Of a stretch of DNA of 64,000 bases, positions 8,238-64,000 are shown one piece after another. Below the pieces are notes generated by a model. That model saw only the letters and a program-made list of their open reading frames with translations. It was not told the origin of the DNA and ran no database searches. How positions within the stretch are numbered: position 1 is the first letter of the stretch; every line of letters begins with the position of its first letter. Origin of the DNA: Pedobacter sp. W3I1 (lineage in GTDB: Bacteria > Bacteroidota > Bacteroidia > Sphingobacteriales > Sphingobacteriaceae); NCBI RefSeq assembly GCF_030816015.1, contig NZ_JAUSXN010000001.1, positions 434,001-498,000 of the forward strand, read 5' to 3'. The position numbers were made by a program, and so were the translations under genes.

Positions 8238-9740
8238 ATGGGATGTGGAAGTTGTTCAACAGGTGGTGGTTGCACCCCTAATGGATGCAAAAGTAATGGC
8301 TCATGCGGCACCGGTGGTTGCCAAACAATGGAAGTTCACGATTGGCTGTCTAATTTGGATATGCCTTCTAATTATAAACCTTTTCAGGTTACAGAGATCA
8401 AGTTTAAAGGCTCACGTAAAGAGTTTTTCCTTAATAACGACAACATTTACCTCGAAATTGGAGAGCTTGTTGCCGTTGAAGGACCAACCGGGGGCTTTGA
8501 TGTAGGGCACGTTTCGCTTACCGGCGAATTGGTGCGGATCCAGATGAAACGCCGTAAAACTGCGCTCGATCAGGTAACCAAAAAAATATACCGTAAGGCT
8601 ACAGAGGCTGATGTGGAGAAATGGAATGCCGCCAAAGGAATGGAATGGGAAACCATGCACAAAGCCCGTAAGCTGGCCTTAGATCTCCGTTTACAGATGA
8701 AAATCAGCGATGTAGATTACCAGGCCGATAAAACCAAAGCGACCTTCTTTTATACTGCCGATGGACGTGTCGATTTCCGCGAGCTGATTAAAAAAATGGC
8801 AGAAAGTTTCCGCATCAGGATCGAAATGCGGCAGATTGGGATGCGCCAGGAAGCCGGCCGTTTAGGTGGAATTGGCTCCTGCGGTAGAGAGTTATGCTGT
8901 TCTACCTGGTTAACCAATTTTAAAACGGTTTCTACAGCTGCGGCGCGATATCAAAATTTATCTTTAAATACATTAAAGCTTGCCGGCCAATGTGGTAAAC
9001 TAAAATGTTGTTTAAACTATGAACTAGATACTTATTTAGATGCTTTAAAGGATATTCCCGATAGGATTGAAAACCTCGATACCGAAGCGGGTTATGCCCG
9101 TCATCAAAAAACAGATATTTTCAAAAAAATCATGTGGTTTAGTTACCAGGGCGATGAAAACTGGATTCCGGTTAAAGCTGTCCGGGTAAAAGAAATCATG
9201 GCCATGAACAAGGCCGGTAAAAAAGCACCTAATTTAAAAGAAGAAGCGGTGCTGATTGCTGCCCCTGTAGTGATAGAAAAATCTTTCGATTATGAAAATG
9301 TAGTTGGTCAGGATAGTTTAACCCGTTTGGATGAACGTTCGCGGGGTAAAAACAACCAGAACAAAAACAGTAATCAGAAAAATAACCGCAGCAATAGCCA
9401 AAATAGAAGAGAAAGAGCGCCTGCCGGAGAGAAGAATGCTGCGCCTAATAATAAGCAACAGCAGGCTCAACAAGGTGACCAAAAGGATCAGCAAGTTGGA
9501 AAACCACAGCAACAAGCGGTACCTAAACCACAGCATGTTAATGGACCAAAACCTCAAAGCAATAAGCCAAAACAACAGCCGCCGCAAGCACAAAAACCTG
9601 TAGTAAAAGCCGAAGGAAATGTAGCGGGAGAGGGTATTAAACCAGAACAGAGTAAAAACAAGAATAGAAATAACCGTAGGAAAAATAATAACCGCCGAAA
9701 CAACAATAATGGCTCAGACAATAAACCTGCTGCTGAATAA
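8238..9740 (+). CDS. ricT: RicT/PSP1-domain protein with Cys-rich N-terminus and Asn/Gln/Lys-rich tail
   Basis: 500 residues. The start MGCGSCSTGGGC and ~30 following residues hold seven cysteines, a candidate metal or Fe-S site. Residues ~65-300 form the PSP1 C-terminal domain: RVDFRELIKKMAESFRIRIEM, then GRLGGIGSCGRELCCSTWL and AGQCGKLKCCLNYE, the conserved Cys clusters of RicT (YaaT). In Bacillus, RicT works with RicA and RicF in an Fe-S complex that stimulates RNase Y. The last ~130 residues are low-complexity N/Q/K/P. It begins 2 bp after holB and overlaps gldH by 32 bp, consistent with one operon. Confidence 0.85.
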   Translation: MGCGSCSTGGGCTPNGCKSNGSCGTGGCQTMEVHDWLSNLDMPSNYKPFQVTEIKFKGSRKEFFLNNDNIYLEIGELVAVEGPTGGFDVGHVSLTGELVRIQMKRRKTALDQVTKKIYRKATEADVEKWNAAKGMEWETMHKARKLALDLRLQMKISDVDYQADKTKATFFYTADGRVDFRELIKKMAESFRIRIEMRQIGMRQEAGRLGGIGSCGRELCCSTWLTNFKTVSTAAARYQNLSLNTLKLAGQCGKLKCCLNYELDTYLDALKDIPDRIENLDTEAGYARHQKTDIFKKIMWFSYQGDENWIPVKAVRVKEIMAMNKAGKKAPNLKEEAVLIAAPVVIEKSFDYENVVGQDSLTRLDERSRGKNNQNKNSNQKNNRSNSQNRRERAPAGEKNAAPNNKQQQAQQGDQKDQQVGKPQQQAVPKPQHVNGPKPQSNKPKQQPPQAQKPVVKAEGNVAGEGIKPEQSKNKNRNNRRKNNNRRNNNNGSDNKPAAE

Positions 9741-10365: not shown

Positions 10366-13224
10366 ATGATAAAAATATTACTCAAAAACTCGCTGTCCAT
10401 TCTCTTCCTTTTAATTTCTACCCAGCTATTTGCGCAAGGCTTAAAGGGTAAGGTTACTGATTCTGCCGGTCTGGCTATTCCAGGTGCTACCGTTCAGGTA
10501 CTTGGCTCAAAAGTTGGAACATCTTCTGATGGCAATGGACTTTACGCTTTAAAATTTCCGGCTGCCGGGGCTTATAAAATCCGCATTTCATTTACAGGCT
10601 ATCAAACAGCCGAAGTAGCTGTGGATATTGACAATACCGTAAAAACAATGGATTTTGCATTACAGGATGCAAAAGAACTGTTGAGTGACGTAGTTGTCAT
10701 TGGATCAAGATCAACACCGAGAACCAATATAGAGAGTGTTGTTCCCGTCGATCTGATTTCAACTAAAGATGTTAAGGTATTTGCCCAAACGGATTTAACT
10801 CAGATTTTAAACTTTGTGGCGCCATCTTTTAGCTCTAACCGGCAAACTGTTTCTGATGGAACCGATCACATCGATCCTGCTTCTTTACGTGGTTTAGGGC
10901 CCGATCAGGTTTTGGTTCTGGTAAACGGAAAACGCAGGCATACCACAGCCCTGGTAAACATTAACGGTACATTTGGACGGGGTTCTGTTGGTACGGATTT
11001 AAACTCTATTCCGGTTTCGGCAATAGAAAGGATCGAAGTTTTACGTGACGGTGCTGCAGCACAATACGGGTCGGATGCCATTGCTGGTGTAATCAATATT
11101 GTATTAAAAAAAGTAACACCCTATAGTTTCTCTACTTCTTTCGGGCAATCCTCATCCAGTGCCTTAGGTCGCGATTTTAGCGATGGCAGAACCTTTCAGG
11201 TTGATTTTAGCAAGGGCTGGGCATTTAAAAATGAAAAGGGTTTTATCAATTTTGCTGCACAGTACCTCCAAAGGGGTTATACCAACAGAGGGGGCTTAGA
11301 TACCCGCCCATTATTATATGCTGCAAGCCCAACTAAAGGGTCAACAGAAACAGAAGCTGCTTTTCAGGCCCGTTTTGCAAGCTTAAAGGCTGCAGATGAT
11401 GCCAGAGCAGCCGCGAACGGCTTGAATAGAAACAACATGCGTGTGGGTAATTCCGATTCTAAAAATGGAGGTGGTTTCTTAAACGGACAGTTTAATTTTG
11501 GTAAAACCACCCAATTGTATTATGCCGCTGGTTTTACCCATAAAACCGGAAGTGCAGCGGGGTTTTATCGCCTGCCCACACAAACTACACAGATTGATTT
11601 ATCCATCTATCCTAACGGATTTTTGCCTTTCATCGATACCAAAATCAATGATTATTCATTTTCTGCAGGATTAAGAGGTAAAATAGGGACATGGGATTAT
11701 GATCTGAGCAATACCAGTGGAGAGAATACCATTGCATTTAATATCAATAACACCGTAAATGCCTCTTTACCTACCGGGACAAGTCCTACTTCGTTTTATG
11801 CTGGCGAATTGCTGTTCAGACAAAACACAAGTAATCTTGATTTAAGCAAAAAACATACTTTTGACGGTGGTTTTCTAACTTCATTGAACACTGCATTCGG
11901 TGCAGAGTTTAGGGTAGACAATTATCAGATTAAAGAGGGCGAGTTGTTATCCTATTCAAACGGTGGAAGATTGATCGGAACATCTCCCACTGCCTCTGGC
12001 GCACAGGTATTCCCAGGATTTAAACCGAGCAATGCTTTGGATAAATCGAGGCATAACCTTGGCGCTTATGCTGATTTAGAAGCTGAATTTGGCCCAAGGG
12101 TGACTTTAGAAGCTGCTGGCCGGTATGAAAACTACAGCGATTTCGGATCGAACTTTTCTTATAAATTTACAGGTAAGATTAAACTTTTTGGTGATGTTTC
12201 CTTACGTGGAGCTTATGCCACAGGCTTCAGGGCGCCATCTTTACACCAACAATATTTTAATAATGAGAGTACACAATTTGTGGGCACAAATGCAACGCAG
12301 GTTTTAACAGTAAATAATGCAAATCCTATTGTTGCCCAATTTGGTGTAGGGGCATTAAAACCTGAAATTTCTAAATCAGGCAGTTTGGGTTTAGCGGGTA
12401 AGGTTGCCAAAACCTTTACCTTCACCATCGATGCTTATAACATTGATATCAGCGACCGGATTGTTTTCTCCAGTCAATATGCCCGCGAACGTTCTGGTGG
12501 CGTTTTAGTGCCAACAGGTGTGGTGAACCAGATTTTGAATACGGTAGATCCTTCCGCACAAATTAACAGTGTACAATTTTTTACCAATGCCATTACCACC
12601 AATACTGCAGGGATCGATGTGGTTTTAACCAATCGGTTCAACTTGGGTGCTAAAAGTAGCTTAATTTTAAGCGTTGCCGGGAATGTAAATAAAACCGTGG
12701 TGAGAAGCATCCGGGGATCTGATAAAATTGAAAGCGATCCAACATTGAAAGCGAAATTATTCGATCGCTTAGAGCGCTCCCGTTTCGAAAGCTCTGTGCC
12801 AAAAAACAAGCTGAATATCACTGCAACTTATAATGTGAATAAATTGTCGTTCGTGGCCAGAACAGTTAGGTTTGGTGAGGTTACTTATTTAAATGCCATC
12901 GACCCGAACATTCCTGCCAATGGTTTGCCAACACAGTTGGATCAAACTTTTGCCCCGAAATGGGTAACCGATTTTTCGGTTAGTTATACAGCAAATAAAA
13001 CCTGGTCGGTAACGGTTGGCGCGAACAATATTTTTGATGTTTATCCAGATAAATTATACATCGATCCACGTAATAATGCAAATAACTTAAGCGGAGATGC
13101 CAGTACCAACTATTCAGGTGGATTAGACAATACTTCCAACGGCAGATTTTTATATCCCAGGGCAGTAAGTCAGTTCGGTTTTAACGGGCGCTATGTTTAT
13201 GGTAAAATTGCCTGTACTTTTTAA
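10366..13224 (+). CDS. TonB-dependent receptor (not SusC type)
   Basis: 952 residues. Signal peptide to about residue 23 (LLISTQLFAQ), then a carboxypeptidase-regulatory-like domain (LKGKVTDSAGLAIPGATVQV, about 24-108), a plug domain (about 115-240, with LRGLGPDQVLVLVNGKRRH and VLRDGAAAQYGSDAIAGVINI), and a long outer-membrane beta-barrel. A C-terminal segment has VSVTVGANNIFDVYPDK, typical of the final strands of siderophore/cobalamin-type receptors. Energy comes from TonB-ExbBD. No SusD gene follows and murF is convergent, so it is a lone receptor; substrate unknown, perhaps a metal chelate. Confidence 0.9.
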   Translation: MIKILLKNSLSILFLLISTQLFAQGLKGKVTDSAGLAIPGATVQVLGSKVGTSSDGNGLYALKFPAAGAYKIRISFTGYQTAEVAVDIDNTVKTMDFALQDAKELLSDVVVIGSRSTPRTNIESVVPVDLISTKDVKVFAQTDLTQILNFVAPSFSSNRQTVSDGTDHIDPASLRGLGPDQVLVLVNGKRRHTTALVNINGTFGRGSVGTDLNSIPVSAIERIEVLRDGAAAQYGSDAIAGVINIVLKKVTPYSFSTSFGQSSSSALGRDFSDGRTFQVDFSKGWAFKNEKGFINFAAQYLQRGYTNRGGLDTRPLLYAASPTKGSTETEAAFQARFASLKAADDARAAANGLNRNNMRVGNSDSKNGGGFLNGQFNFGKTTQLYYAAGFTHKTGSAAGFYRLPTQTTQIDLSIYPNGFLPFIDTKINDYSFSAGLRGKIGTWDYDLSNTSGENTIAFNINNTVNASLPTGTSPTSFYAGELLFRQNTSNLDLSKKHTFDGGFLTSLNTAFGAEFRVDNYQIKEGELLSYSNGGRLIGTSPTASGAQVFPGFKPSNALDKSRHNLGAYADLEAEFGPRVTLEAAGRYENYSDFGSNFSYKFTGKIKLFGDVSLRGAYATGFRAPSLHQQYFNNESTQFVGTNATQVLTVNNANPIVAQFGVGALKPEISKSGSLGLAGKVAKTFTFTIDAYNIDISDRIVFSSQYARERSGGVLVPTGVVNQILNTVDPSAQINSVQFFTNAITTNTAGIDVVLTNRFNLGAKSSLILSVAGNVNKTVVRSIRGSDKIESDPTLKAKLFDRLERSRFESSVPKNKLNITATYNVNKLSFVARTVRFGEVTYLNAIDPNIPANGLPTQLDQTFAPKWVTDFSVSYTANKTWSVTVGANNIFDVYPDKLYIDPRNNANNLSGDASTNYSGGLDNTSNGRFLYPRAVSQFGFNGRYVYGKIACTF

Positions 13225-13290
13225 GAATATCGATATATCGTCATTCTCAAAGAAGAAGAGTAAAGGAGTTGTGATGAAAGGTCTCTAGAA

Positions 13291-13370
13291 TCGTCATTTC
13301 GACCGCAGTGGAGAAATCTTAACATAGTTTAAAGATTTCTCCATTCGCTGCGCTTCAGTCGAAATGACGA
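13291..13370. repeat. Palindromic dispersed-type intergenic element
   Basis: CGTCATTTCGACCGCAGTGG (from 13292) is complementary, with a few mismatches, to the sequence ending CAGTCGAAATGACGA at 13370, enclosing an AACATAGTTT-type centre. A further segment around 13441 (TTCGACAGGCTCAGACTGAC) resembles intergenic sequence I recall as recurrent in Bacteroidota genomes. It lies between convergent tonB-receptor and murF genes, where a hairpin may also act as terminator. Confidence 0.6.
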
Positions 13371-13504
13371 CCGTTCTATGGAGTCTGTCAATGGTGGCCC
13401 GTCAAAGGAAAAATGGTTTTTTTTCAATTATCAAGATGTCTTCGACAGGCTCAGACTGACAGCATCTATTTTTAAACTGTTAGCATTGTTCTAAAAGATT
13501 GAAA

Positions 13505-51193: not shown

Positions 51194-52108
51194 ATGCAGC
51201 AACCATCTAACATCAATAACCTAAAAAGTATATCGCAATTGGTGCGTATCTTGGGACTTCCTGCGCCATTGCACCCACTGATTGCATTGGTTGATTACAA
51301 TAATGTTTCGATGGAAAGGTTTCCGAAAGGGCAAAAAGTAAGTCTTGATTTTTACAAGATTTCCTTTAAACCTACCTTTACAGGGCACATCAAATACGGA
51401 CAGGGACATTACGATTTTGAAGAAGGCGGATTAGCATTTTTAAAGCCTAAACAAATCGTTTTTTCACCTGAAGAAACAGAAAGCTATGAAGGGATTGCTT
51501 TGTATTTCCATCCGGACTTTATCCGAAATTATCCGTTAGGAAAAACAATAAATCAGTATGGCTTTTTCTCTTACGATGTTTCAGAAGCCTTATTTCTATC
51601 GGCAAAAGAAAAAGAAATTATAGCCAGTTTATTTACCACAATAGCCACCGAATTAGCCAACAATATTGACCATTTTAGCCAGGATGTGTTGGTGTCGCAA
51701 ATAGAATTGTTATTGAATTACAGCAATCGTTTTTACAACAGGCAATTTATCACGAGGAAAGCAATCAATCACGACATCATCACTTCTCTGGACGAACTTT
51801 TAAACAGCTATTTTAAAGAAGAAAATAGTCTGAAAAATGGTTTGCCATCAGTGAAATATATCAGTACAGCATTAAAGCTATCGCAGCGCTATTTGAGTGA
51901 CATGTTGAGTTCATTAACAGGACTGAATACACAGCAATACATTCAGAACGCAATCATTGAAAAAGCGAAAGAAAAATTATCAACTACAAATCTTTCCGTT
52001 TCGGAAATTGCTTATGAACTGGGCTTTGAACATCCACAATCGTTCAGCAAACTTTTCAAGGCAAAGACAAATATTTCGCCTTTGGAGTTCAGACATTCGT
52101 TTAATTAA
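51194..52108 (+). CDS. AraC family transcriptional regulator
   Basis: 304 residues. The N-terminal ~190 form a cupin-like sensory domain (GHYDFEEGGLAFLKPKQIVFSPEETESYEG). The C-terminal ~100 hold two helix-turn-helix motifs: PSVKYISTALKLSQRYLSDMLSSLTG and LSVSEIAYELGFEHPQSFSKLFKAKTNISPLEFR, the AraC signature. As last gene of the AKR-SDR operon it probably controls that operon in response to a small molecule. Its stop overlaps by 4 bp the truncated end of hipS on the other strand, so this operon lies right at a break in the hip module. Confidence 0.9.
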   Translation: MQQPSNINNLKSISQLVRILGLPAPLHPLIALVDYNNVSMERFPKGQKVSLDFYKISFKPTFTGHIKYGQGHYDFEEGGLAFLKPKQIVFSPEETESYEGIALYFHPDFIRNYPLGKTINQYGFFSYDVSEALFLSAKEKEIIASLFTTIATELANNIDHFSQDVLVSQIELLLNYSNRFYNRQFITRKAINHDIITSLDELLNSYFKEENSLKNGLPSVKYISTALKLSQRYLSDMLSSLTGLNTQQYIQNAIIEKAKEKLSTTNLSVSEIAYELGFEHPQSFSKLFKAKTNISPLEFRHSFN

Positions 52109-52362
52109 AGAGAGCAGAAAGCGAATTCCGCTCTTGCGAATTTAAGTAGCCAGCCCTCTGGAATCAGGCCGTCGAAAAATGAAAATAGGATTTTGCTTTG
52201 ATAGGAATATGGTGATAAGGGAAGGCTCAGACTTATGGGCTTGGCGCTTTCATTACTTAGGTATTTTGAGTCATAAGTAAACCTATAGCCATTATCATAC
52301 TTCTCCAGATATCCCGCAAGATTATCCCCAAACAATACTTTTGATCTAATCCACATGTCCAT
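52105..52362 (-). pseudogene. hipS: Truncated HipA N-terminal domain protein (HipS-like)
   Basis: 85 residues: VLFGDNLAGYLEKYDNGYRFTYD, AKPISLSLPLSPYSYQSKILFSFFDGLIPEGWLL matches the HipA N-terminal subdomain (HipS of split HipBST systems). After PEGWLL (about residue 72) similarity stops and KFARAEFAFCSL is read from the end of the convergent AraC locus; about 25-30 terminal residues are missing. No kinase gene (hipT/hipA) follows. It overlaps the end of hipB by 17 bp, so the two were translationally coupled. In E. coli O127 HipS neutralises the HipT kinase; here the toxin is gone. Confidence 0.75.
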
Positions 52363-52993: not shown

Positions 52994-53605
52994 ATGAAAA
53001 CTCTAGCAAAAATATTATTCGCAGCAGCATTAACAGCAGTATTATTTACTTCATCAGCCATGGCAACTTTTGCTGCTGAGCCAGTTAAAGCAGAAACAAA
53101 AACTTCTTCATTATCAAAATTCAACAGGATCTGGGTGAGCGGTAATGTTAAAATCATCTTAACCCAAGGTGACAAGCAAAATGTAGAGGGTGCGAGCAAC
53201 TATGATGCTGCAAAAACCTCCGTATCAACTGATGGAAAAACCTTATTTATCAATTCATTGGAAACAAGTCAGGTGACACTGAATGTTACCGTAAAAGATT
53301 TAGAAAGAATTGAAGCTTATGGTCAATCGGTTGTGGTAACCAGCAATAATTTCGATGTAAAATACCTTCAGTTATTTTTAGGCCAAAGTGCAACCGCGAA
53401 GATCAAAACTACCACAGGGAGTTTGTATACTATCGTTAAAGATGATGCAGTATTAAAATTAAATGGTACTGCTGGTCAAAGTACAATGATCGTTAGCAAC
53501 ATGAAAAATGTAAAATTAGCCGACTTTGCCAGTCTTAAATCAGCATCATATGCTTCTGAGGCGATCATGAACGCGGAACAAAATGCCATGAATTTAGCAA
53601 AATAG
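52994..53605 (+). CDS. Secreted DUF2807 (head GIN domain) protein, copy A
   Basis: 203 residues. Signal peptide MKTLAKILFAAALTAVLFTSS and beyond to AAE, then a DUF2807-like beta-helical body: LSKFNRIWVSGNVKIILTQG, LFINSLETSQVTLNVTVKDLERIEAYGQSVV, VKYLQLFLGQSATAKIKTTTG. Such proteins are periplasmic or surface exposed and are suggested adhesin-like; no enzymatic role is known. Copy B at 55923-56534 is almost identical at protein level (about six differences) and shares ~230 bp of leader. A hairpin terminator follows. Abundant in Pedobacter. Confidence 0.82.
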   Translation: MKTLAKILFAAALTAVLFTSSAMATFAAEPVKAETKTSSLSKFNRIWVSGNVKIILTQGDKQNVEGASNYDAAKTSVSTDGKTLFINSLETSQVTLNVTVKDLERIEAYGQSVVVTSNNFDVKYLQLFLGQSATAKIKTTTGSLYTIVKDDAVLKLNGTAGQSTMIVSNMKNVKLADFASLKSASYASEAIMNAEQNAMNLAK

Positions 53606-55922: not shown

Positions 55923-56534
55923 ATGAAAACCTTAGCAAAAACCTTATTCGCAGCAGCATTAACAGCAGTAGTATTTACTTCATCAGCCATGGCGACTTTT
56001 GCCGCTGAGCCGGTTAAAGCAGAAACCAAAACTTCTTCATTATCAAAATTCAACAGGATCTGGGTGAGCGGGAACGTAAAGATCATCTTAACACAAGGTG
56101 AAAAACAAGATGTAGCGGGTGCCAGCAACTATGATGCTGCAAAAACCTCCGTATCAACTGATGGAAAAACCTTATTTATCAATTCATTGGAAACAAGTCA
56201 GGTGACACTGAATGTTACCGTAAAAGATTTAGAAAGAATTGAAGCTTATGGTCAATCGGTTGTGGTAACCAGCAATAATTTCGATGTAAAATACCTTCAA
56301 TTATTTTTAGGCCAAAGTGCAACCGCGAAGATCAAAACTACCACAGGCAGTTTGTATACTATCGTTAAGGATGATGCAGTATTAAAATTAAATGGCACTG
56401 CTGGTCAAAGTACAATGATCGCTAGCAACATGAAAAATGTAAAATTAGCCGACTTTGCCAGCCTTAAATCAGCATCATATGCTTCTGAGGCGATCATGAA
56501 CGCGGAACAAAACGCCATGAATTTAGCAAAATAG
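55923..56534 (+). CDS. Secreted DUF2807 (head GIN domain) protein, copy B
   Basis: 203 residues, beginning MKTLAKTLFAAALTAVVFTSS. It is nearly identical to copy A (52994-53605), with I/T, L/V, D/E, N/D, E/A and V/A changes scattered in the signal peptide and body. The DUF2807 core (LSKFNRIWVSGNVKIILTQG) is intact. The ~230-bp leader and downstream terminator are also duplicated. Such close paralogy implies recent duplication or ongoing gene conversion. Periplasmic or surface protein of unknown role. Confidence 0.82.
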   Translation: MKTLAKTLFAAALTAVVFTSSAMATFAAEPVKAETKTSSLSKFNRIWVSGNVKIILTQGEKQDVAGASNYDAAKTSVSTDGKTLFINSLETSQVTLNVTVKDLERIEAYGQSVVVTSNNFDVKYLQLFLGQSATAKIKTTTGSLYTIVKDDAVLKLNGTAGQSTMIASNMKNVKLADFASLKSASYASEAIMNAEQNAMNLAK

Positions 56535-58715: not shown

Positions 58716-60254
58716 ATGAAAACAGGCAATACCCTGAATTTTTTCAGGATAATGGGATTACTGGGCTTATTTGCAATTTCAGCATGTAAAGGTTCTGGAG
58801 GATCCAAATCAGAAGATCCGTTTGCTGCTACAAATTTCAACTTTTATGATCAGGATTTAGGAAAGCGTGTCGAAGCATACAATAAGGCCAAAACCCCAGG
58901 TAATAATCCGAAAAGAGGTACCCCTGCACTTTATATTGATTTTTCATCTGGTATAAATAAGGCTTTTAATGATCCTACGATTAAAAGTATGATGTCGACC
59001 TGCTTCAATACCGTTCTCGCCCAACAATTTGAAGTTTACAAATTAGGTTCCAAAAAAATATCATTATTAAACGTAGCCAATACAACCGAATTGGGCCAAC
59101 AGGTAAGTGACCCAAAGCAATACGTTGATATTTGGGCACCTTTACAAGCTACAGTAGAGAAAATTGTTGCCGGCAACAACGATGCGCTCCTGATTACTGA
59201 TTTTGAGGAGTGGCAAAATAACATAGAGGTTACCAATACGGCCTTTTTAAAAATCCCCTTCTCCAAATGGCTTGCAAAAGGAAATGCGGTCCATTTTTTT
59301 ATTGCAGATTATAAAGAAGGAAAGGTTAACAAACATCTTTACTTTACCATATTCAGCTGTGGTAATCCCGATGCAGGAAGCATGATTTCAAAACTCGAAT
59401 CAAAACTTTCGCCATCAACAACCAGATTTGATTTATCGAACAGTGCTTATAAGCTATCTACAACGTATCCTTCAGAAAAATCAGGTGGTATTTTTTATGA
59501 TGAAAGTGCAAAATCAGATAAGGCAAAAAACGTTCTCGATTTAAAAGATGGTTACATTAACGGCCTTAAAAACGGGCACAACTTTGAGTTTTATCCACTT
59601 GGTTTAGATTGGGAAAACATCGATCAACTGCATAGTACATACGCTGGCCAAAATCAATTTAACGATTTCTTCCGGAAACTGTTTATCGATCTGAGTAATG
59701 GGGATAGTTACGCTTTTGGAAACTTCGGCGTAAAAGTTTCGGATGTGACAGCTGATTTCGAAAATTTTGCCAAAGCTGAAGAGGCTAAAAAACATCAGCC
59801 AAAATTAACCAAAGGAAATAATGGCGAGGCCAAGTTCTCTGACAAAGAAAGTGATGCAATTGCACGCGAATGTTATAATACCGAAGGGAAATTAAAGGAG
59901 CAATGGATTTACAAACCACAGGCAGGAAGCCCAATAAATGAGGTTTTTACCTTAAACCAAACCCTGTTTACAAATACCAAAGCGCTAAATCCAAAACATG
60001 TTGAACTTGGTGTTTCTTTTGACCCTAAGTTCAGTCTCGCCAACATCCATAATCCTGATGGATTAGTTAAGGTGGATGTTTTATTAAATGCTGCCACACC
60101 TAGTCTGCAAGGCACAAAAATGTCAAAATTCGAGTGGATTAATGCCAAAAGCACCCCCAATACCGCTTTATCCGAATCTATAAAAAACACCTTACAGGAA
60201 CTTAAACCTGTAGATAAAGTAGTGCACTCATACTATATCAAAACTAAACAGTAA
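58716..60254 (+). CDS. Lipoprotein with degenerate von Willebrand A-like domain
   Basis: 512 residues; lipobox FAISACKG near residue 24. I recognise no named family, but the pattern resembles a vWA domain at about residues 65-230: PALYIDFSSGIN (strand with D-F-S-S-G, cf. MIDAS DxSxS), QFEVYKLGS, NDALLITDFEEWQ (strand followed by TD) and NAVHFFIADYKEG. A second half with WIYKPQAGSP and VELGVSFDPKFSLANIHNPDGLVKVDVLL follows. It is the first gene of an operon with a small membrane protein (27 bp later) and a tubulin-like protein. vWA domains typically mediate metal-dependent protein contacts; here likely at the outer face of a membrane. Confidence 0.6.
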   Translation: MKTGNTLNFFRIMGLLGLFAISACKGSGGSKSEDPFAATNFNFYDQDLGKRVEAYNKAKTPGNNPKRGTPALYIDFSSGINKAFNDPTIKSMMSTCFNTVLAQQFEVYKLGSKKISLLNVANTTELGQQVSDPKQYVDIWAPLQATVEKIVAGNNDALLITDFEEWQNNIEVTNTAFLKIPFSKWLAKGNAVHFFIADYKEGKVNKHLYFTIFSCGNPDAGSMISKLESKLSPSTTRFDLSNSAYKLSTTYPSEKSGGIFYDESAKSDKAKNVLDLKDGYINGLKNGHNFEFYPLGLDWENIDQLHSTYAGQNQFNDFFRKLFIDLSNGDSYAFGNFGVKVSDVTADFENFAKAEEAKKHQPKLTKGNNGEAKFSDKESDAIARECYNTEGKLKEQWIYKPQAGSPINEVFTLNQTLFTNTKALNPKHVELGVSFDPKFSLANIHNPDGLVKVDVLLNAATPSLQGTKMSKFEWINAKSTPNTALSESIKNTLQELKPVDKVVHSYYIKTKQ

Positions 60255-60281
60255 TCTAAAATCATTAAAATAAATTCTAAA

Positions 60282-60620
60282 ATGGAATCAACTTCAGCTT
60301 ACATCATCTCGATCATTACCGCATTGATCTTTCTTCTTTTATCTGCCATCATTGCAAACGCCATCAAATTTGAAGGGGGGAGTAATCCCAAAGACCCACA
60401 GGCGCGTAAAACCTGGTTTTGGATATTAGCCATCTTAAATCCAGCTGCATGTTTTCTATTGGGCTATTATGCGTTCAAGCCAGACGCAAACATTATGGTA
60501 TTGAATAATTATGTAACAGCCTTGAGTATCGGTACAGCTATCGGTTTTATTCTCTACATCATCATCGGTTTTGTAATGAGCAAAATATTTGTCACCGGAA
60601 AAATCGGCCACTGGTTTTAA
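60282..60620 (+). CDS. Small integral membrane protein of the tubulin-like operon
   Basis: 112 residues with three hydrophobic helices: about 6-28 (YIISIITALIFLLLSAII), 45-66 (TWFWILAILNPAACFLLGYY) and 77-104 (VTALSIGTAIGFILYIIIGFV), joined by a short hydrophilic loop KFEGGSNPKDPQARK. No family recognised. It lies 27 bp after the lipoprotein gene and 18 bp before the tubulin-like gene, so the three are surely cotranscribed. It could anchor the cytoplasmic tubulin-like protein to the inner membrane or link it to the lipoprotein; this is inference. Confidence 0.65.
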   Translation: MESTSAYIISIITALIFLLLSAIIANAIKFEGGSNPKDPQARKTWFWILAILNPAACFLLGYYAFKPDANIMVLNNYVTALSIGTAIGFILYIIIGFVMSKIFVTGKIGHWF

Positions 60621-60638
60621 CCCTAATCAAAAACATCA

Positions 60639-62282
60639 ATGGATAAATTATTCGTAATCGCGATAGGCGGTACCGGGATGCGCTGTTTGGAAGCCTTTAC
60701 CCACTTGTGTGGAATCGGAATGTTCGACAATCAGGAGATCGAAATCCTTACGCTTGATACCGATCAGAATAACGGGAACAAAGGACGGGTTGAAGAACTG
60801 ATCGGCCTTTATAACCGGATCAAAACAACCGGTACAAGTGTAGGCGGAACACCAAATGCAAATACTTTCTTTTCAGCCAAACTGAATTTACACCGGTTTT
60901 TTACCAATTATGCCGGCCCTGGAAGGGAAACTTATAAAAATATTAGCAAAATTACCACGGGCTCACCCGAGCAGCAGAAAGCTAATAAATTAATCTCCGA
61001 TCTGTTTTTGGACAATGGCTCAGTACAGGAATTTTCATTGGATCATGGCTACCGGGCCCAAACCCACCTGGGTTCTATGCTGATGTATCATGGCATTGTA
61101 GAAGCAGCGCGGAATATTATAAAAGGTTCTGCGGTACAATTGCAGGAAAGGGAATTAGATGCTTTTATGGGCAAACTGGAAAGTGCCGGTGCAAATGCGA
61201 GGCTTTTTATTTTTGGGTCTATATTTGGTGGTACAGGCGCATCTTCTATTCCGGTAATTCCAAAGGCGTTACAGGATTTCGTAAAAATCCGTTCTAACGG
61301 TAATGCCAGTATCGATTTTGCTAAAGCCAAATTTGGCTCTACATTATTAACAGAGTATTTTACCTTTAACAAACCCGATGATAAACAAAAGGCGAGCAAA
61401 GCAAATAGTGTAATCGCCGATTCATCATTCTTTCCTTTAAACAGTCAGGCTGCGCTGCAGTTTTATCAGAGCGATCCTACGGTTCAGAAGTGTTATAAGC
61501 TATTGTACCATATCGGCTGGCCGATAGAAAGCAAAAAAATTGATGGCAACAACATTTCCAATCAGACCATAACTGGAGGAAGCGAGCAAAAAAACCCATG
61601 TCATATTACAGAATTATTATGTGCCTGTGCAGCATACGATTTCTTTACCCGAAACGATGGTTTAAACAGTGCAAAAGCAGATTATCTGTATAAAGCAGTA
61701 GAATTTAAAGATAATTCGTTCAATTTCTCTTTTGACGACTTTATAGGCAATGAAAATAAATCAGGTGAAATATTTGTAAATAAACTCGGCGCCTTTTTCT
61801 CGCTGGCACACATTTCTTTAACCAAAAACGGTGGCGCTTTTGATGATGCAGGTATAAAAGGTTTCATCAAACAATGTGAGAATCAAAAACTCAACCAGTA
61901 CAGTACCATTACCGATGCAGAATGTAAAGATATAAACGAATACTTTAAACTCTTTGCCTACACATTCAAAGATGCCAAATTTATACCGGGCTGGCTTTAC
62001 CAGGTGAGAAACTCTGTTGCCCCAGGCAGGTTCCTCTTTGATAGCAAGGCATTCCCTGATAACCCTTCCGAGCTAAAAAAACTGGATGTTGGAACCATTT
62101 TCCTGGATGAAAAACATCATTGGAGTAAAGGAGGGCTTTTTAGGGACCGCTATGATCTTTTCGTCGAAAAACTGATCAATACCAATCCCAAAGAAGAGCA
62201 AAAAGTAAATACCACCAAGGAGAAATTCCTTGCGCACATTTTTAATGCACTTACCATTTCACAAAACTTCGATATAAACTAA
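60639..62282 (+). CDS. Tubulin/FtsZ-like protein (Tubulin_2 family)
   Basis: 547 residues. Start MDKLFVIAIGGTGMRCLEAF is a Rossmann-type beta-strand and GTP-base loop, as in FtsZ/tubulin T1; LTLDTDQNNGNK follows (T2 region). The tubulin signature equivalent is FIFGSIFGGTGASSIP near residues 186-201, corresponding to GGGTGSG/T4. These are the marks of Tubulin_2 proteins (tubulin-like, longer than FtsZ), known from comparative genomics with vWA and membrane partners. GTPase activity and polymerisation are untested. The C-terminal ~250 residues (e.g. YTFKDAKFIPGWLYQVRNS) are unrecognised. A fourth gene begins 6 bp later. Confidence 0.78.
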   Translation: MDKLFVIAIGGTGMRCLEAFTHLCGIGMFDNQEIEILTLDTDQNNGNKGRVEELIGLYNRIKTTGTSVGGTPNANTFFSAKLNLHRFFTNYAGPGRETYKNISKITTGSPEQQKANKLISDLFLDNGSVQEFSLDHGYRAQTHLGSMLMYHGIVEAARNIIKGSAVQLQERELDAFMGKLESAGANARLFIFGSIFGGTGASSIPVIPKALQDFVKIRSNGNASIDFAKAKFGSTLLTEYFTFNKPDDKQKASKANSVIADSSFFPLNSQAALQFYQSDPTVQKCYKLLYHIGWPIESKKIDGNNISNQTITGGSEQKNPCHITELLCACAAYDFFTRNDGLNSAKADYLYKAVEFKDNSFNFSFDDFIGNENKSGEIFVNKLGAFFSLAHISLTKNGGAFDDAGIKGFIKQCENQKLNQYSTITDAECKDINEYFKLFAYTFKDAKFIPGWLYQVRNSVAPGRFLFDSKAFPDNPSELKKLDVGTIFLDEKHHWSKGGLFRDRYDLFVEKLINTNPKEEQKVNTTKEKFLAHIFNALTISQNFDIN

Positions 62283-62288
62283 AGAACC

Positions 62289-64000
62289 ATGTCAGATAAA
62301 AGAATCAAAGCCCTGGCGATAAAAGTTCATCCTAAAACAGAGCCGAACGGAGTCGAATTTGCCTGGGATAAAATTCCCCAGCTTGAAGTATTTACAAAGA
62401 ACATCCTGATACCAGAAATCGCTGTTGATCAGGACGGAAATTCTTCTGTTAATATCGGAACAATTGTATCTGGTATACCTTCTGTATTTGCCAGGGCCAA
62501 TTTATTCAAAAATGCCATAGATAATATTCGTGATAAAGATGCTGAAGCATCAGGTTTAATGTTGTTCTATAAGTCCCTGATCAGTGAATGGAAGGGATTG
62601 ATTAGTTGTATAGCCTTAAACTATAAAGATATAGAAACGAATAGGATTCATCTATCTTATTCAGACGGCGGCCATTTAAATACAACAGTAAATATATACG
62701 AACCAACTGGTGCATTTGGCAATATGCTATTCGAGCGAAAACCCTTATGGTGTGATCAATCTTTGGCAAATAATGCAGATAGAATACCCTTTATTGATGT
62801 AATGTCTTTTAAGGGTAACGTTATCGGTGGAACTTCTCCTGACAGTTTTGTTTTTACTTCGGTATCGTACCAGATTAAGGAAAAGTTCCCTTTCATCAAC
62901 GTACAGAACGGAAAATTTATCGATCCTTTACAATCTGAGATTAATTCGCAGGAACTTTTTACACTGTATGGTTACGCCAAACACATTCTGGATAATATTG
63001 AAAGGTTCAGGTTAAATTATGCCGGAGTAGAAGAACTGATAAGGCCTGAATATGGAAATATTTCGACCTGTATCCAGGCCTGGATGAACGATATGGTTAT
63101 TTATCAGCAGGCAAAGGGATATCCAAAACTTGATAAATCTACACCACCCGAAGTTGGCTCTTTATTCAATTATCCTTTTAGCCTACTTTTTAATTATTCT
63201 ACAGAATTATTTGGTTCGGAGGGGATTATCTATAGCGAATCGAAAGAAGGAAGTATCCTATTCGATCCGAAAGATTTACTGCTTCCGGATACTACCGAGA
63301 TTGCCCAGATCGATTTTAGCAGAGAAGGGATGGAAACCCGGAACTTTCTAAAATCAAAACCCATATTGCTATTGGCGGCCGAAACCAAGGGCCAGCTGAA
63401 CAGCTACGCTTATTTTACCCTCCCCTTAACACCGTTGGCTCTAAATGTTTTTGGTGCTACGCTTGACGCATTGGTGGGCATTTCGGAATCATCTAACGTA
63501 AAATCGCGGATTACCGCCATTTACGACCCAACGGATAAGGATGGCGAACGTTTAATCGTTCAGTTAAAACTATATACCGAAACCGGAAACGAGATTGTTA
63601 AAGAGGTAATTTATAAGGTAACCTCCGAATCGATCAGCGGGAAAGACATTTTAATGTGGCCTAATTTTATATCCAAACAATGGAACCGATATTTTCTTTA
63701 TTCAGAAATACCGCATAACGACGCTAAGTTTCAGGCTACGCCATTTATCGGAAATGTGGATGATGATTTTTTCAGGATAGTTTTAGATGAGAAGGGTTTC
63801 CCTTTATACCTCGCCAATAACGGAAAGGCAGCAGTTATTCCCGAAAAATACGGTAACATCAAAGCACAGCTTCATATTGCCTCGAACAATGCGGTGGCCG
63901 ACAATAAATACAAATACGAGATATACGAAAGTAATAAACCTTTTAAAGGGATAAAATTTGCACACGCTGGGGTTGATTGTGGTTTTGGGATTATCCGTTA
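62289..64000 (+). CDS. Large unrecognised protein of the tubulin-like operon (partial, runs off window)
   Basis: ATG 62289 opens a frame of 570 codons with no stop to the window end, starting MSDKRIKALAIKVHPKTE. No signal peptide or membrane helix is visible, so it is probably cytoplasmic. Motifs I can see: LMLFYKSLISEWKGLISCIAL, PFIDVMSFKGNVIGGTSPDSFVFTS, GYAKHILDNIERFRLNYAG and, at the very edge, AGVDCGFGIIR, which loosely resembles an actin/Hsp70 phosphate-1 loop (DxGxG) preceding a further domain. Not recognised as any family. 6 bp after the tubulin-like stop, so part of the same operon. Confidence 0.7.
   Translation, partial: MSDKRIKALAIKVHPKTEPNGVEFAWDKIPQLEVFTKNILIPEIAVDQDGNSSVNIGTIVSGIPSVFARANLFKNAIDNIRDKDAEASGLMLFYKSLISEWKGLISCIALNYKDIETNRIHLSYSDGGHLNTTVNIYEPTGAFGNMLFERKPLWCDQSLANNADRIPFIDVMSFKGNVIGGTSPDSFVFTSVSYQIKEKFPFINVQNGKFIDPLQSEINSQELFTLYGYAKHILDNIERFRLNYAGVEELIRPEYGNISTCIQAWMNDMVIYQQAKGYPKLDKSTPPEVGSLFNYPFSLLFNYSTELFGSEGIIYSESKEGSILFDPKDLLLPDTTEIAQIDFSREGMETRNFLKSKPILLLAAETKGQLNSYAYFTLPLTPLALNVFGATLDALVGISESSNVKSRITAIYDPTDKDGERLIVQLKLYTETGNEIVKEVIYKVTSESISGKDILMWPNFISKQWNRYFLYSEIPHNDAKFQATPFIGNVDDDFFRIVLDEKGFPLYLANNGKAAVIPEKYGNIKAQLHIASNNAVADNKYKYEIYESNKPFKGIKFAHAGVDCGFGIIR

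Follow-up and report, generated by a model that had tools for sequence, protein, structure and literature searches.

The 64,000-nt window analysed here (Pedobacter sp. W3I1, contig NZ_JAUSXN010000001.1, positions 434,001 to 498,000 of the forward strand) ends inside an operon of eight genes, A to H, whose first four are predicted to combine an exported vWA lipoprotein (A), a small membrane protein (B), a tubulin/FtsZ-fold protein (C) and a protein with an actin/Hsp70-type ATPase half (D). Related operons keep these four genes in order and carry different sets of genes behind them. We propose, as a reading whose chances of being right and wrong look evenly balanced, that the operon encodes an envelope-spanning machine for sensing or assembly, driven by nucleoside triphosphates (NTP), in defence or envelope stress. 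The host genome is closed (6.4 Mb) and belongs to a soil bacterium, and the nearest relatives of the operon are found in Pedobacter. The initial annotation, made from the window alone, described an operon of four genes on the + strand; the listing of open reading frames (ORFs) returns these four at the same coordinates with the same gaps of 27, 18 and 6 bp, but the operon does not end with the fourth. The window edge falls at codon 570 of the 1301-codon gene D, and gene D is followed by four more co-directional genes, so that all eight lie on one strand with small gaps, with opposite-strand genes beyond. Positions past the edge are given for locus L001, where the window coordinate equals the L001 coordinate plus 55999, and lengths in amino acids (aa):

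58716..60254, + strand: gene A, 512-aa lipoprotein with signal peptide, lipobox cysteine C24, N-terminal vWA-like domain and C-terminal extension
58908..59411, + strand: vWA-like domain of gene A, residues about 65-232, placed by model range and conservation
60282..60620, + strand: gene B, 112-aa inner-membrane protein with three predicted transmembrane (TM) helices (by inspection)
60639..62282, + strand: gene C, 547-aa tubulin/FtsZ-fold protein (predicted model), predicted GTPase
60660..60683, + strand: T1-like nucleotide loop AIGGTGMR of gene C, placed by conservation in 13 sequences
61224..61244, + strand: T4 loop FGGTGAS of gene C, the tubulin/FtsZ signature, placed by conservation and profile match
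62289..66194 (62289..64000 in the window; L001 6290-10195), + strand: gene D, 1301 aa
beyond the window, + strand: C-terminal half of gene D, residues about 590-1301, predicted ASKHA (actin/Hsp70-superfamily) ATPase by motifs and profiles
L001 10198-11481, + strand: gene E, 427 aa, with proline-rich tail
L001 11482-12072, + strand: gene F, TerD (E 9e-61)
L001 12077-12730, + strand: gene G, TerD (E 9e-45)
L001 about 12744-13454, + strand: gene H, one TM helix and an OmpA peptidoglycan-binding domain (E 3e-14)

Gene C had been called tubulin-like on the motifs AIGGTGMRC and FGGTGASS, both of which are present, and the call is borne out by structure prediction. The predicted model (predicted template-modelling score, pTM, 0.78; mean predicted local distance difference test, pLDDT, 67.7; poor in the inserts) has tubulin and FtsZ as its top Foldseek matches at probability 0.98, and all 50 matches listed by VIA-align are FtsZ or tubulin structures (Z 11.6-12.5 over about 185-240 residues). 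At the level of the model, the tubulin/FtsZ fold of gene C is thus shown, and the protein is predicted to be a GTPase. Sequence comparison agrees once relatives are included: as single proteins neither gene C nor gene D matched any PDB sequence, and a profile of 13 gene C relatives matches CetZ and about 20 FtsZ structures with the T4 loop in register. In the alignment of these 13 sequences G10, G11, T12, G13 and R15 of the T1 loop are invariant, as is F196-G200 (FGGTG) of the T4 loop, whose form FGGTG(A/S)(S/A/G) is a slight variant of the signature GGGTG(S/T)G by which membership of the family is recognised. Against the Pfam Tubulin family gene C gives E=0.0014, under the cut-off, and against Tubulin_2 (PF13809) it scores 13 bits where 27 are required (E=0.061). 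One of its relatives reaches 28.4 bits and some match Tubulin_2 at E 8e-5 to 5e-6, and therefore gene C is best placed, on sequence, beside FtsZl1/Tubulin_2 as a sister branch and not within it; it has 547 aa and no long coiled-coil, compared with 997-1215 aa for canonical Bacteroidota Tubulin_2 open frames. Two further tubulin-like genes stand apart. At L051 about 8250-9460, in a genome with 13% contamination, a tubulin-like gene is broken by a stop and is probably a decayed copy, and L056 9097-18158 holds another version, very distant, in which a protein of 1681 aa includes a tubulin-like stretch and the genes behind it resemble a MotB-like protein (WPAIADLMTAIL).

The vWA-like domain assigned to gene A on D-F-S-S-G and ITDFEEW, both present, also stands, since its predicted model (pLDDT 87) has a vWA fold. 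Foldseek matches of this model were weak, with vWA domains the most probable, and all 50 matches listed by VIA-align are vWA or I domains (among them Rpn10, TFIIH, the Sec24 trunk, VWF A1, integrin and BatB). Their Z scores of 5.9-7.0 are modest, and values of 6-7 leave room for a merely common arrangement, though every listed match is a vWA domain; at model level, the assignment holds. The metal-ion-dependent adhesion site (MIDAS) is atypical, D-x-S-x-G ... T-D: compared with the canonical DxSxS...T...D the third serine is a glycine, and the middle threonine has no assignment. D75, S77, G79, T161, D162 and E164 are invariant in 42 relatives. Because the motifs of genes A and C are invariant across relatives, they are not chance matches. 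In the sister operon type described below, the counterpart of gene A carries VNxFLExSGSM and LISDxIYS, and searches of PDB sequences with profiles of gene A and of this counterpart returned no vWA domain, so the fold was revealed by the predicted structure alone.

The ATPase half of gene D could not be seen in the initial annotation because the window ends before its first motif, which lies about 25 codons past the edge. In 32 sequences the C-terminal half keeps LGVDFGSTNTS, WSYPSSM, FDIGGSTTDI, FAGKGARIFDW and KYEVSKGLA nearly invariant, which is the established motif pattern of actin/Hsp70 ATPases, with xGxDFGSTN, FDxGGSTTDI and FAGKGAR as phosphate-1, phosphate-2 and adenosine motifs. The gene D profile matches Hsp70 chains only, at E 0.5-1.5, which alone is not significant; the sister-family profile of its counterpart matches MreB (E 0.0011), actin, FtsA and Hsc70. 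In profile-profile comparison gene D matches DnaK at E 1e-4 with 59% probability, compared with about 1% or less for the negative controls (genes E, C and A and the N-terminal half of gene D), and it matches the sister family at 99.5% (97.5% for the N-terminal half, the portion that the window contains). The C-terminal half is thereby predicted to be an ASKHA ATPase. Gene E was considered as a degenerate Hsp70-like protein and dropped, as its profile comparisons with DnaK and gene D gave 0.1-0.3% and a PDB profile search was empty. It has a proline-rich PPLPPKK tail in operons of the window type (type I), and is longer in Bacteroidales, where its beta-rich repeats look FNIII-like by eye.

Gene C or a distant relative occurs in 14 of 151 genomes of the family (6 close orthologues) and in 15 of 395 genomes of the phylum, and a collection-wide scan with gene D returned 53 loci, all in Bacteroidota. 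Gene C precedes gene D in every one of the 53, and genes A and B hold their positions in all loci whose contig extends far enough, gene B sitting between A and C; in a single locus gene B was not recognised and a 138-aa ORF occupies its position. In near and middle-distance members of the family gene C was never found without its lipoprotein, three-TM and large-protein neighbours, so that neither of the findings that the initial annotation had named as refuting it, a tubulin-like gene apart from these neighbours or a model without the tubulin fold, was obtained. The same order of lipoprotein, three-TM, tubulin and actin-like genes is kept in a sister type with 22-25% identity in gene C.

Behind this core the gene content varies. 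Of the 53 loci, 38 continue with TerD genes (mostly then an OmpA gene), 5 are cut by a contig end and 10 are without TerD; seven of these ten, the Bacteroidales versions, have gene E followed by a zinc-ribbon DO-GTPase, a GAP1-N2 protein and a TM DO-GTPase (DO-GTPase2/GAP1-N2 module assigned by Pfam for two loci and by similarity search for all seven). The two modules were never found together and thus exclude each other in the 53-locus sample, a count of sequences from related genomes and not of independent events. Many sister-type operons end instead with MotA/ExbB-like and MotB-like genes, which in PADLOC match ZorB1 (E 8e-11) and ZorA2 (E 4e-4); the membrane-helix aspartate (DLMT) is kept in 7/7 complete MotB-like proteins, and most of the MotA-like proteins show the two-helix pattern of the MotA family.

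In the TerD and OmpA module of the window's operon, the acidic calcium-binding GDGDDE loop by which TerD proteins are recognised is kept in gene F and varied in gene G. FDLNK/FDLSK motifs are found in the cytoplasmic tail of gene H (L001 12744-12920) and are present in 37 of the 42 members of its family, with four copies in L045. As they look like the strand at the N-terminus of TerD proteins (FNLNKG..FSLSK), the sequences suggest that gene H and the TerD proteins may dock through this tail. Moreover, the TM helix of gene H lacks the membrane aspartate of MotB-like proteins, from which we infer an anchor rather than an ion-channel subunit. A TerC-like gene lies close to gene H or gene A in 12 type I loci, with strong matches. 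Elsewhere in the same genome there is a separate, canonical-looking ter cluster (L128 5443-10189, C1:4.68 Mb) with two TerD, TelA-like, HAD-like, PRTase-like and TerC-like genes.

The surroundings point to a variable place in the chromosome. Several Sphingobacteriaceae copies, of either operon type, adjoin a conserved trio of c17, a histidine-kinase-like gene and a response-regulator-like gene (trio genes named by inspection), and in operon-free genomes the same place holds, in varying combination, an HSDR_N nuclease, an SNase-like gene and a pair of secreted vWA-like and membrane proteins. The window's genome shows the same island layout (L156), and the operon thus appears to sit in an island whose contents are exchanged, as would suit genes for defence or stress. 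On the minus strand immediately downstream of the operon, L001 14576-16760 encodes two proteins: one of 290 aa is secreted and has the vWA-like motifs LLDLSDR and VILTDG, and the other is a membrane coiled-coil protein of 442 aa. In operon-free genomes the same island again holds vWA-like relatives (L144, L145, L150, L152). A stand-alone HSDR_N-like nuclease gene at L001 18983-19999 (minus strand) is found again next to operons of both types and within the operon-free island. Upstream, 52994-53605 and 55923-56534 encode near-identical 203-aa secreted proteins (MKTLAK.LFAAALTAV...) about 3 kb apart, a recent duplication, and other Pedobacter loci (L019) have a related copy ahead of the operon. 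An 85-aa ORF at 52105-52362 (minus strand) resembles by eye an N-terminal fragment of HipA and is possibly the remnant of a toxin-antitoxin kinase.

In the sensor scheme that we favour, the exported lipoprotein A would bind its ligand or partner beyond the inner membrane and the small protein B would carry the signal inward, where the predicted GTPase C and the ATPase D, helped by E, would assemble or switch at the cytoplasmic face. The two TerD proteins and the peptidoglycan-binding protein H would tether the complex to the wall or relay it there. The core A-B-C-D is constant and what would be its output or anchor module is swapped, with TerD and OmpA here, DO-GTPase/GAP1-N2 in Bacteroidales and a ZorA/ZorB-like channel in the sister type; by analogy with GAP1-N2 systems and Zorya, the most likely job would be a threshold-triggered defence or envelope-stress response. 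This reading draws on the kept core order, the folds of A and C, the motifs of D, the module exchange, the ZorAB-like genes, the patchy spread and the variable slot shared with nuclease genes, and it is from these that we infer complex formation, polymerisation, the direction of the signal and a role in defence. A bolder version, which is tentative and which we would not expect to hold, is a new class of envelope-sensing bacterial immune machine: a tubulin-type GTPase and an actin/Hsp70-type ATPase from neighbouring genes would join in a single assembly, driven by a signal and placed beneath a vWA receptor outside the cytoplasm, and different outputs would plug into it (TerD and OmpA, a ZorAB-like proton channel or GTPase/GAP1). 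Several observations weigh against a defence machine. The core genes have no PADLOC match (genes A, B, D and E have nothing above cut-off in Pfam, NCBIfam or PADLOC), no recognised effector (nuclease, pore or protease) lies within the operon, and neither GAP1-N2 nor DO-GTPase2 has a match in the operon or the whole host genome, so that the analogy runs through the shared core only. The T7 loop NxDxxD completes the GTPase site of tubulin and FtsZ, and by eye no clear counterpart was found in the 13-sequence alignment of gene C, the model being weak in the inserts. Type I gene D is about 80-98% conserved within Pedobacter, which would fit a housekeeping stress role too.

Other roles for the same genes are less probable. 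Filaments of C and D could shape the envelope at the inner membrane with A and H as anchors, that is, form a membrane-remodelling or vesicle-forming cytoskeleton; a tubulin fold adjoins an actin-family ATPase, vWA and OmpA partners occur as in the FtsZl1 operons (PMC2875224), and exported vWA proteins stand beside canonical Tubulin_2 genes in other Bacteroidota. However, a patchy distribution and a variable island are unlike a general cell-shape function, and a role in signalling is suggested by distal modules being swapped for GTPase/GAP1 and ZorAB-like genes, so we consider remodelling unlikely. The two TerD genes, with their acidic GDGDDE-type loop largely kept, and the nearby TerC-like genes would suit a response to metal or chemical stress, in which TerD would detect metal ions or buffer them, with the tubulin/ATPase core as the response scaffold; this is rather improbable, as the genome has its own canonical ter operon and both the sister type and the Bacteroidales versions have the core but no TerD. 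Tubulin and actin folds also serve DNA segregation and positioning on plasmids and phages, and the tubulin fold of gene C could be read as a TubZ/ParM or PhuZ-like cytoskeleton of this kind. The absence of gene C matches from phage records and of gene D matches from plasmid records counts against that role and against the defence reading alike; moreover, the operon has no adaptor or centromere gene and three of its eight proteins are exported or membrane-linked, so that this role is very improbable and already largely excluded by gene content.

For the coupling of a tubulin-like GTPase to an exported vWA protein, the novelty suggested in the initial annotation is not supported: vWA-FtsZl1-OmpA operons (PMC2875224) and tubulin-vWA-GTPase systems (PMC7159879) were already described. 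The ATPase half of gene D, the TerD/OmpA genes and the module swapping look new, and no paper was found on a tubulin with this ATPase and TerD or ZorAB, weak evidence from a search that covered few subscription papers and preprints. According to Makarova and Koonin (2010; PMC2875224), a highly diverged FtsZ/tubulin lies beside vWA, often with OmpA-domain and GTPase genes, and predicted membrane complexes of vWA, FtsZl1, GTPase and OmpA were proposed, with FtsZl1 as a membrane-remodelling or vesicle-forming cytoskeleton. The present operon resembles these, but FtsZl1 has about 1000-1200 aa and the long coiled-coil that gene C lacks, and the accessible part of that paper mentions neither TerD genes nor an ASKHA ATPase. 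Kaur et al. (2020; PMC7159879) predicted GTPase/tubulin/vWA systems to be conflict systems, with a tubulin theme in Firmicutes and Actinobacteria only that did not overlap with an HSP70 theme. The operon shares tubulin, vWA and HSP70-like parts with these GAP1-N2 systems, and its Bacteroidales relatives carry the same DO-GTPase/GAP1-N2 genes; therefore it belongs to the broad GAP1-N2/tubulin conflict kind. It differs in uniting tubulin and HSP70-type folds in one Bacteroidota operon, and in having TerD and OmpA in place of the GTPase and GAP1 that define those systems.

In Zorya, an ion-driven ZorAB motor senses attack on the envelope. The sister type has ZorA/ZorB-like genes with MotA/ExbB-type helices and the membrane aspartate, and envelope anchoring through an OmpA-type peptidoglycan domain is common to both; however, the window's operon has no ZorA, the TM helix of gene H is without the aspartate, the other components have no PADLOC Zorya match, and the defining set of ZorA/ZorB with ZorC/D or ZorE is not found. 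With Ter clusters (tellurite, phage and colicin resistance) it shares TerD domains and, in some relatives, a TerC neighbour, but it lacks TerB, TerC and TelA-like genes, and the canonical cluster lies elsewhere in the genome. Tubulin_2-type proteins have had predicted but untested roles since 2010, and the operon family offers a compact conserved set in culturable Pedobacter, Chitinophaga and Flavobacterium, with actin-family and tubulin-family NTPases in one gene set, so that the function of several orphan families becomes directly testable. Through one shared core, Zorya-like ion channels and TerD proteins are connected with the predicted GTPase/tubulin conflict systems.

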